A stretch of 64,000 bases of DNA from Flavobacteriales bacterium (lineage in GTDB: Bacteria; Bacteroidota; Bacteroidia; Flavobacteriales_D; Sanyastnellaceae): the NCBI GenBank assembly GCA_027491215.1, contig JAIXWP010000144.1, positions 1-64,000 on the forward strand. Direction: 5' to 3'. This document shows positions 577-40,865 of this stretch, one piece after another. The notes beneath the pieces were generated by a model. The model saw only the letters and a list, made by a program, of their open reading frames with translations, had not been told where the DNA came from and made no database searches. How positions within the stretch are numbered: position 1 is the stretch's first letter; each line of letters opens with the position of its first letter. The translations under genes and the position numbers were made by a program.

Positions 577-1221
577 TTGTAATGTCTTACTCTTCTCTTC
601 GTTTCGATGTTTGATATATGTCCTAACGACAATTATAGATGTGCTCATAATGAATGCGAGCACGATGTATTCTACATAATCTTTAATCCAAGGAAACTGA
701 TTTCCCAAGAAATATCCTATTAAGCTCAATGATGTCACCCATAATGCTCCCCCAATTAAATTGTAAAGCATAAAGTTTTTGAAATCCACTTTGATTACAC
801 CAGCAAGTATTGGTGCGAAAGTTCTGATAATTGGAAGGAAGCGTCCCAGGATAAGTGTTTTGCCGCCATGTTTTTCGTAGAATGATCTAGTGACATCCAC
901 ATATTTTTTCTTGAAAAAAATGGATTCATTTCGATCAAAAACTTTCGGTCCGGTTTTCATTCCAAACCAATATCCGAATAGGCTACCTGCCACTGCTGCA
1001 AGGAACATGGAGGAAGTTAGAGTAGTGATATCCACGTCTAGAAGCTCCGGCTGAGTGGAACAAATAAGTCCAGATAAAAAAATCAGCGAGTCTCCTGGCA
1101 AGAAGAAGCCGATAAGAATACCGTTTTCTGCGAAAACGATGATTAGAAGAAGCGCCAATCCGCCATAGTGAATGATGGTTTCAGGATTGGAAAGGCCTTT
1201 GATTATTTCCCATGCGTCCAT
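571..1221 (-). CDS. DedA/SNARE-associated family membrane protein (ORF extends to 1317; likely start is the internal Met at 1221)
   Basis: FAENGILIGFFLPGDSLIFLSGL, GRFLPIIRTFAPILAGV motifs of the DedA family; the N-terminal 32 aa of the ORF overlap the upstream gene. Confidence 0.85.
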   Translation of the reverse strand: MDAWEIIKGLSNPETIIHYGGLALLLIIVFAENGILIGFFLPGDSLIFLSGLICSTQPELLDVDITTLTSSMFLAAVAGSLFGYWFGMKTGPKVFDRNESIFFKKKYVDVTRSFYEKHGGKTLILGRFLPIIRTFAPILAGVIKVDFKNFMLYNLIGGALWVTSLSLIGYFLGNQFPWIKDYVEYIVLAFIMSTSIIVVRTYIKHRNEEKSKTLQQ

Positions 1222-32949: not shown

Positions 32950-34206
32950 TTAACTGAACTCTAAAATTGTACTCGAAATAATATCAATACACTCTCTCAA
33001 TTGTGTTTCATTGATGACAAGAGGTGGAGCGAATCGAATGATGTTTCCATGTGTTGGTTTTGCCAACAGTCCGTTTTCTGCAAGTCTTACACAAATGTTC
33101 CATGCCTTTTGGCTGTGCTCATCATCATTGATAACTACTGCATTCAGCAGGCCTTTACCGCGAACAAGTTTAACAAGTGAACTTCTTTTAGCTAGTTCAT
33201 TCATTTCATGTCTGAATATAACCCCAAGGTTTTCTGCGTTCTCAGAAAGCTTTTCATCTTGAAGAACTTGAAGTGCTTCTTGCGCTACAGCACATGCGAG
33301 AGGATTTCCGCCATAAGTAGAACCATGCTCACCTGGATGAATGGTCATCATCACCTCATCATTCGCAAGTACGGCTGAAACAGGTAACACGCCGCCAGAG
33401 AGGGCTTTACCAAGAATCAAAATATCGGGCTTCACATTTTCATGATCGCAAGCAAGCATTTTACCAGTGCGCGCGAGTCCCGTTTGAACTTCGTCAGCAA
33501 TCATAAGAACATTGTATTTTGTACAAAGTGCTCTGATGCCTTGTAAATAACCCTCATCAGGAACAACTACACCAGCCTCGCCTTGAATCGGCTCAAACAT
33601 GAATCCTGCAATGTTTGGTTCACTCTTAAAAATGTTTTCAATTGCTTCAAGGTTGTTGTAGGGTACGATTAAATACCCAGGAACAAATGGTCCAAAGCCG
33701 TTGGTGCTACTTGGATCTTGTGATGAAGAAATCGCCGCAATAGTTCTACCCCAAAAATTACCTTCGACAAATACCATCTTGGCTTCATTCGCAGGAACTT
33801 TCTTTACATCATATGCCCAACGACGAGCGAGTTTCAATGCTGTTTCACCACCCTCAACACCAGTATTCATAGGTAATACACGATCATAGCCAAAGAATGA
33901 AGTGATGAACTTTTCATAGCTTCCAAGTCTACTGTTATAAAATGCACGTGAAGTAAGCGTTAGCTTTTGAGCTTGCTCGGTTAAGGCAGCGATTATGCGC
34001 GGATGACAATGACCCTGATTCACTGCAGAGTAAGCTGAAAGAAAGTCAAAATATCTTTTGCCCTCAAGATCCCAAACATAAACGCCTTCACCGCGGTCGA
34101 GCACTACAGGGATTGGATGGTAGTTGTGAGCTCCATATTTATCTTCCAATTGCATTGCATGAGACGATGTAAGAGTAGATTCTTGAGTCATAATTTCTGC
34201 TGACAT
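32950..34206 (-). CDS. rocD: Ornithine--oxo-acid transaminase
   Basis: [84 protein letters not shown]. Confidence 0.96.
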
Positions 34207-34232: not shown

Positions 34233-34524
34233 CGACTTGAATTTTGGATAAAATAGTTGTCCTATGTGCTAAAAAACAACTTGAAAAAATAGTGAATTGT
34301 AAAGCTCTAGAAATCAAAGAGTCACAAATGGGAAAAGTCCGATGTGAGCGGGTTATAGCACGATGAAATTAATTTTTTGGTTGACGAAATTGAAAGTTTA
34401 ACATGAAAAAAAATCACAAAAAAAAGGTTTCTTCACTTTTTTACTCGAAACTTGCGACCTGAAATGAAATGATCGGTCAAACTAAGGCTGTTTAAGGCAG
34501 ACTGAAAGAATAGACTTAAGGTAT

Positions 34525-34632
34525 AGACAGAAAGGTGCGGGGAGCTATATTTCGTGGCTCAGGAGTGATTCAAAGTCCTGCCGTTTTGGGAGAGAGGGCG
34601 GCAGGTGCCCCGCATCCATTCTGTCTTTTTTT
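34525..34632 (+). ncRNA. Structured small RNA ending in a U-tract; candidate 6S-type (6S-Flavo-like) RNA
   Basis: Nested pairings: AGACAGAA(34525-34532)/TTCTGTCT(34619-34626), GCGGGG(34537-34542)/CCCCGC(34608-34613), CCTGCCG(34577-34583)/CGGCAGG(34599-34605), followed by TTTTTTTAT; no ORF here. Confidence 0.7.
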
Positions 34633-34690: not shown

Positions 34691-35110
34691 ATGGCAGGAA
34701 ATATCACATTTACCATGATCAAACCAGATGCAACTACAGCTGGTAACACGGGTAAAATCTTAGACAAAATCATCGAAGCTGGTTTCACAATCAAGGCTAT
34801 GAAATGGACGAAGTTGAGCAAGGAAGAAGCAGGTCGCTTCTACGCTGTTCACTCTGAGCGCCCTTTCTTCGGTGAATTAGTAGAATACATGACAAGCGGT
34901 CCAATCGTTGCCGCTATTCTTGAAAAAGACAATGCAGTTGAAGATTTCAGAACACTTATCGGTGCTACTGATCCACAAAAAGCTGCTGAAGGTACTATCC
35001 GTAGAATGTTCGCGCAAAGCATTGCTGCAAACGCAGTACACGGTTCTGATAGCGATGAAAATGCGCTTATTGAAGGTGCATTCTATTTCTCTTCTAGAGA
35101 ACACGCTTGA
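34691..35110 (+). CDS. ndk: Nucleoside diphosphate kinase
   Basis: [57 protein letters not shown]. Confidence 0.97.
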
Positions 35111-40506: not shown

Positions 40507-40595
40507 GGAAAGGTGGGTGAGTGGCTGAAACCAACAGTTTGCTAAACTGTCGTACTGGGTAACTGGTACCGGGGGTTCGAATCCCCCCCTTTCCG
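40507..40595 (+). tRNA. tRNA-Ser(GCU)
   Basis: GGAAAGG...CCTTTCC acceptor; CAGTTTGCTAAACTG anticodon arm (GCT); long variable arm; GGTTCGAATCC T-arm. Confidence 0.95.
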
Positions 40596-40674
40596 CAGAA
40601 ACCGAAGAGTCTGCCGACTCAAACGTTTCTCGCGAAAGCGAGGCAGGTTTGAAAAGGCAACTTTAGGTAAGTTT

Positions 40675-40748
40675 CGGGGTGTAGCGTAGCCCGGTATCGC
40701 GCCTGCTTTGGGAGCAGGAGGTCGTAGGTTCGAATCCTGCCACCCCGA
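40675..40748 (+). tRNA. tRNA-Pro(UGG)
   Basis: CGGGGTG...CACCCCG acceptor; CCTGCTTTGGGAGCAGG anticodon arm (TGG). Confidence 0.95.
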
Positions 40749-40750
40749 CA

Positions 40751-40786
40751 AAGAAAAGACAACTTCGGGGTTGTCTTTTCTGTTTT
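40751..40786 (+). terminator. Hairpin between tRNA-Pro and tRNA-Arg
   Basis: AAAGAAAAGACAACTTCGGGGTTGTCTTTTCTGTTTT. Confidence 0.75.
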
Positions 40787-40791
40787 ATAAT

Positions 40792-40865
40792 GATCTCGTA
40801 GCTCAGTTGGATAGAGCATCTGCCTTCTAAGCAGACGGTCAGGGGTTCGAATCCCTTCGGGATCA
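40792..40865 (+). tRNA. tRNA-Arg(UCU)
   Basis: GATCTCG...CGGGATC acceptor; TCTGCCTTCTAAGCAGA anticodon arm (TCT). Confidence 0.95.

Follow-up and report, generated by a model that had tools for sequence, protein, structure and literature searches.

A structured RNA near ndk in a family of Flavobacteriales, with predicted pairing to the mRNA of an ECF sigma factor

The intergenic region between rocD and ndk in a Flavobacteriales bacterium looks like a structured RNA gene, on the computed features of structure, covariation and distribution. The core hairpin with its U tract occupies positions 34525–34632 (plus strand) of the window, i.e. the whole 64,000 nt stretch of DNA that was analyzed, which comes from contig 135 of the 3.17 Mb genome G000. 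The locus probably, although far from certainly, encodes a trans-acting small RNA of a new family whose members, by base pairing, would damp their own ECF sigma factor. The original prediction had proposed a 6S-like RNA; the element looks like a stress feedback RNA, undescribed so far, rather than 6S.

The gene names rocD and ndk are from the original prediction and from the protein sequences. rocD (32950–34206) is on the opposite (minus) strand and is transcribed away from the hairpin, and ndk (34691–35110) is on the plus strand. The fold of the hairpin has a free energy of −50.3 kcal/mol, compared with −32.5 ± 3.3 kcal/mol for 200 dinucleotide shuffles (z = −5.3). The outer stem P1 is formed by AGACAGAA (34525–34532) and TTCTGTCT (34619–34626), and the inner closing stem P2 by GCGGGG (34537–34542) and CCCCGC (34608–34613). 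The apical hairpin P3 (34577–34605) has arms at positions 34577–34587 and 34595–34605 that include the perfect stem CCTGCCG/CGGCAGG (34577–34583/34599–34605). Pair probabilities in the three stems are 0.76–1.0, with the exception of the innermost G of GCGGGG, which has a value of 0.18. The apical loop, GGGAGAG (34588–34594), is unpaired with a probability of 0.99. A terminator-like tract of seven U residues is at positions 34626–34632. The sequence and the pair probabilities thus agree with the three nested perfect stems, the U tract and the position between rocD and ndk that had been described previously.

Other parts of that description do not hold. The internal loop was said to be large and asymmetric, however in the window genome most of it is filled by a small hairpin, GAGCTAT-ATTTC-GTGGCTC. 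The last arm of this hairpin, GTGGCTC (34554–34560), is the counterpart of GTGGCTA, which is a conserved internal-loop word in relatives (alignment A7), and here it is paired. The sequence TATATTTCG had been interpreted as a mimic of the −7 promoter element. It is partly paired. Only two of the three congeners carry it and the other genera do not, so any promoter mimicry is not a conserved feature. The proposed switch between two folds by way of a CAGGA/TCCTG hairpin is unsupported, as the competing hairpin is improbable (pair probabilities of 0.0002–0.016, at a cost of 4.8 kcal/mol) and is not conserved in congener L003.

The RNA family has 14 members in seven genera (g1, g2, g6, g7, g12, g16 and g18), and every one of them comes from the bacterial family of the window. 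Covariance-model searches of 399 Flavobacteriales genomes show none outside this family. Within it the distribution is patchy, i.e. seven of about 21 genera are carriers. BLASTN with the window RNA detects only two congeners, G001 (90% identity) and G002 (77% identity), both with the RNA at the same rocD–ndk location. The RNAs of other relatives were first recognized by folding the regions upstream of ndk, and the covariance models R1 and R2 were built from these. Of the 399 genomes, 11 are matched by the models, and each of these belongs to the window's family. The order-wide search, which has stricter filters, missed the window genus; its three genomes were added to give the total of 14. R2, which was built from other genera alone, matches the window at positions 34535–34616 (plus strand, 22.2 bits, E = 0.0019 in a 77-kb search) and recognizes the three window-genus genomes at E = 0.0002–0.01, none of these being in the training set. 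G042, also outside of the training set, is found at E = 6e-7. Two of the carriers are named deposits, L034 (Flavobacteriales MAG C15_102_105_12) and L035 (Cryomorphaceae bacterium ASP10-05a). A weak match of R1/R2 in a Crocinitomicaceae contig (L063, positions 706–764, minus strand, E about 0.005) was rejected, as it displays no such hairpin fold and does not have the apical loop word. Rfam has no match to the window RNA, either at gathering thresholds in a scan of the whole window or at E ≤ 10 in this region. Elsewhere in the window, Rfam places three consecutive tRNA genes at positions 40507–40865.

The members share a common plan of a long P1, a short P2 that ends in GG/CC, and the apical hairpin P3, with stem bases that differ. 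The 5′ strand of the internal loop is about 17–34 nt in length and carries GTGGCTA, and the 3′ strand is 1–4 nt in most members. L035, the member in g18, does not have the GTGGCTA word. The apical loop is GGGAGAG or UGGAGAG in all 14 members (alignment A7). In an alignment that was fitted to the covariance model and thus leans towards structure, 92% of the base-pair cells of the 13 distinct sequences are standard pairs, compared with 71% in shuffles, and 45 cells are double-changed, compared with 12.8; none of 500 shuffles reaches 45. Sliding the pairing partners brings pairing down to 35–57%. Covariation is seen in P2, where 95% of the cells are paired, and double changes are found at nine of the ten pairs of P3. 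The outer stems, which are not part of the model, are also kept in other genera with unrelated sequences. The original prediction had asked for covarying base pairs and for conservation in the intergenic regions of orthologs; both are present, which supports its reading as a structured noncoding RNA.

A common sequence is found upstream of the RNA in most genera. All ten members from g2, g6, g7, g12 and g16 have TGTGAC[C/T]-N15-CGTC, differing from TGTGACC-N15-CGTC in no more than one position, at 115–133 nt before the apical loop. G042, not in the training set, also fits this pattern. The exact motif is rare, with 0–4 copies per genome. From its sequence it looks like a promoter of the ECF-sigma form. 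ECF promoters that have a CGT box at −10 were reported as a class on the basis of mapped transcription starts in Flavobacterium psychrophilum (PMC9723704), where this class, SM6, is tied to type IX secretion genes (PMC9723704). In several members (L025, L028, L034, L162, L163 and L224) about 45–60 nt lie between the promoter and the core hairpin, often with one or two small hairpins, e.g. GTGGA-gaaa-TCCAC and GGTAC-TTCG-GTACC in L034. These small hairpins would belong to the 5′ end of the RNA.

Other copies of the motif are located before an ECF sigma gene (G013 and G032), before mscL (G017) and before genes for outer-membrane or lipoprotein-like products, and some copies are probably due to chance. 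The ECF operon consists of the sigma gene (Pfam Sigma70_r2/r4_2), genes for mechanosensitive-channel proteins (MS_channel_1st_1) and, between them, a gene for a small protein of about 65 aa. Orthologs of the sigma factor with 65–100% identity are present in eight genomes (G007, G008, G013, G017, G027, G032, G034 and G042). GTGAC[C/T] is upstream of the ECF gene in all eight, with a spacer of 14 in two and 15 in six. Since the motif is found upstream of every ortholog, the sigma gene is probably autoregulated. The two genera whose RNAs have no clean motif, g1 (the window genus) and g18, have only ECF paralogs of about 30% identity or less. No ortholog was found in G003 and G026 (98% and 85% completeness, respectively) despite the presence of the RNA and its promoter, which may reflect gaps in the assemblies or a weakness of the link to the sigma factor. 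The small protein of the operon (NPFKIIEPREE...VMGSVK..., L186–L188) is conserved and has no Pfam match; it may be a counterpart of CfrX. The same type of ECF promoter precedes mscL in G017 (L165; Pfam MscL), which suggests that the signal is osmotic down-shock or membrane tension. The sigma factor looks like one of the membrane-stress type.

The conserved internal-loop word, GUGGCUA in RNA letters, is proposed as a candidate pairing seed in the relatives. The RNA word UGUGGCUA has its complement in UAGCCACA, which lies in the ECF mRNA leader only a few bases ahead of the UUG start codon. This complementarity, which was spotted by eye ahead of testing, is perfect over 9 nt in G013 and G032 and over 10 nt in G008, G027 and G034. 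Such lengths are reached by 0–2 of 500 shuffled leaders with dinucleotides kept, and none of the 26 upstream regions of paralogous ECF genes has a match of 9–10 nt. Complementarity is shorter in G017 (7 nt) and in G007 and G042 (6 nt) and there is not above the controls. Native pairs of RNA and leader are no better than pairs in which the leader is swapped with that of a relative, thus co-evolution is not evident. The mean unpaired probability of the seed is 0.58–0.78 in seven of the eight measured relatives with the ECF-type promoter, and 0.30 in L031. The apical loop is open throughout, with values of 0.61 in L224 and 0.89–1.0 elsewhere.

As judged by homology, the window copy is a diverged member of the family with a degenerate promoter, a hidden pairing word and an intact apical loop. 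A candidate remnant of the ECF promoter, TGCGACC-N15-GGTC (34453–34478, plus strand), differs by two mismatches from TGTGACC-N15-CGTC and is 135 nt upstream of the apical loop, which is the homologous distance; 0.2% of mononucleotide shuffles have a match as good. The remnant is absent from the congeners L002 and L003, i.e. it is present in one of the three genomes of the window genus. If it marks the old promoter, the 5′ end of the RNA would be near position 34485. Upstream of the RNA, the three congeners partly conserve a further sequence, AGGTTTCTTCACTTTTTTACTCGA (34426–34449), which may be part of their present promoter. The small hairpin covers the seed, whose unpaired probability is 0.03 in the window copy and 0.03–0.16 across the window genus. 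The hidden seed fits with the loss of the sigma factor from this genus. A search for targets of the window version by way of GAGCCACGAA gives three other sites in G000, none of which is conserved among the three congeners. The window copy is presumably under another promoter and would act through its apical loop.

These features suggest the following sequence of events. In most carriers a SigX-like ECF sigma factor would drive the RNA promoter and would also transcribe its own operon of sigma factor, small protein and mechanosensitive-channel proteins. Membrane stress would activate the sigma factor and the RNA would be made. The exposed word UGUGGCUA would then pair with UAGCC(ACA), which lies in the sigma mRNA leader a few bases ahead of the UUG start, and would most likely block translation, closing a negative feedback loop. 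The near-invariant purine loop GGGAGAG probably touches a second partner, either an mRNA or a protein. We infer transcription of the RNA, its dependence on the sigma factor, pairing in the cell and repression of sigma from these computed features. The wider reading is offered more tentatively, i.e. that a Bacteroidota membrane-stress system of ECF sigma factor and mechanosensitive channels has a noncoding arm, a single small RNA made from the sigma factor's own type of promoter and directed at the start region of the sigma mRNA, and that the window genus lost the sigma factor, rewired the RNA and folded the seed away.

The RNA might instead depend on the ECF sigma factor and yet act apart from the sigma mRNA, on other mRNAs or by sequestration of a protein through GGGAGAG. 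The invariance of the GGGAGAG/UGGAGAG loop, which is nearly always unpaired, would be explained in this way, as would the weak pairing of RNA and sigma leader in three of eight genomes and the retention of the RNA by a genus without the sigma factor. However, chance is an unlikely source of 9–10 nt matches that recur at the same place by the start codon in three genera, and no recurrent CTCTCCC site that could pair with the apical loop is seen in other leaders with the same promoter. Action apart from the sigma mRNA is accordingly rated as rather unlikely, although it merits consideration. It is highly improbable that the hairpin is nothing more than a strong terminator or that it serves ndk as a cis element. 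A U tract ends the hairpin in the window and ndk is adjacent in most genera, but in relatives a TAnnTTTG-like −7 box for ndk is downstream of the RNA, several members have no U tract, the two conserved unpaired words would be needless in a terminator, and rocD reads away on the other strand. In genus g6 (L162 and L163), the RNA gene and its promoter are located away from ndk and adjoin a gene for an FtsX/LolE-like permease. This displacement speaks against a cis element of ndk and, set beside the location next to ndk in most genera, points to an independent gene.

The 6S reading in its surviving form holds that the RNA is the 6S of the window's family, highly diverged and moved from zapA–rny to ndk, that mimics an open promoter for the housekeeping RNA polymerase. 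The right-sized long hairpin, the asymmetric bubble and the terminator-like end are in its favor, as are the lack of an Rfam-detectable 6S in the family and its empty zapA–rny gap. The 6S-Flavo model (RF01685) exceeds its cut-off in 10 of the 17 Bacteroidota genomes searched, with scores of 93–117 bits. It has no match at E ≤ 10 in the window region or in the loci of ten relatives, and it matches none of 60 relatives of the window in a larger search with stricter filters. The general 6S model (RF00013) has no match at E ≤ 1 in 36 genomes, with positive controls, and none in the window. True 6S-Flavo in Flavobacteriaceae is between zapA and rny and carries the closing region ACUCAAC...GGAGUUU, which is present in L114–L125 and absent from all 14 members of the new family. 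Membership in 6S-Flavo was rejected on Rfam score, closing-region signature and genomic position, and membership in general 6S on Rfam score. The zapA and rny genes of the window's family are immediate neighbors, with no such RNA between them. Several other Flavobacteriales families (L127–L156) also have adjacent zapA and rny and no 6S-Flavo, so in families with an empty gap 6S is either not recognized or has been lost. Against a diverged 6S are also the 3′ strand of the bubble, at 1–4 nt in most members, the −7-like word, which is not conserved, and the apical loop as the most conserved part. A distribution over about a third of the family's genera, together with an ECF-type promoter, does not resemble a housekeeping 6S RNA. 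A diverged 6S is thus considered very improbable. Like 6S-Flavo, the new RNA is a long Flavobacteriales hairpin, some 105 nt in length, that contains an internal loop; it differs in sequence signature, location, promoter type and pattern of conservation.

The feedback RNA proposed here provides an RNA family, a promoter and a predicted partner, so that feedback on an ECF sigma factor by a single RNA becomes directly testable; in the window genus, the RNA would have survived the loss of its regulator. Small-RNA arms of ECF sigma responses have been described in Proteobacteria and Fusobacteriota (PMC11005410), and a partial search of the literature found no account of a Bacteroidota counterpart. 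Rfp18 of Flavobacterium psychrophilum is similarly a structured, conserved flavobacterial small RNA with predicted mRNA targets, however it acts on protease mRNAs (PMC9723704) and no relation to the new RNA was found. The Pseudomonas SigX-CfrX-CmpX system is comparable, as its ECF sigma factor is accompanied in regulon and neighborhood by a small protein and by an MscS-like channel (PMC7641640). The likeness seen so far is one of layout rather than of orthology of promoter or sigma factor, and no small RNA of this kind was found in the description of that system (PMC7641640). The closest parallels are FoxI and FoxJ of Fusobacterium and MicA, RybB and MicL of enterobacteria, which are small RNAs made under an ECF envelope-stress sigma factor from a promoter type shared with the sigma gene (PMC11005410). 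Overexpression of FoxI or FoxJ lowers rpoE (PMC11005410). The new RNA differs from these in having no Rfam match to them, in its single long covarying hairpin, in its occurrence in a different phylum and in its predicted direct pairing with the sigma mRNA.
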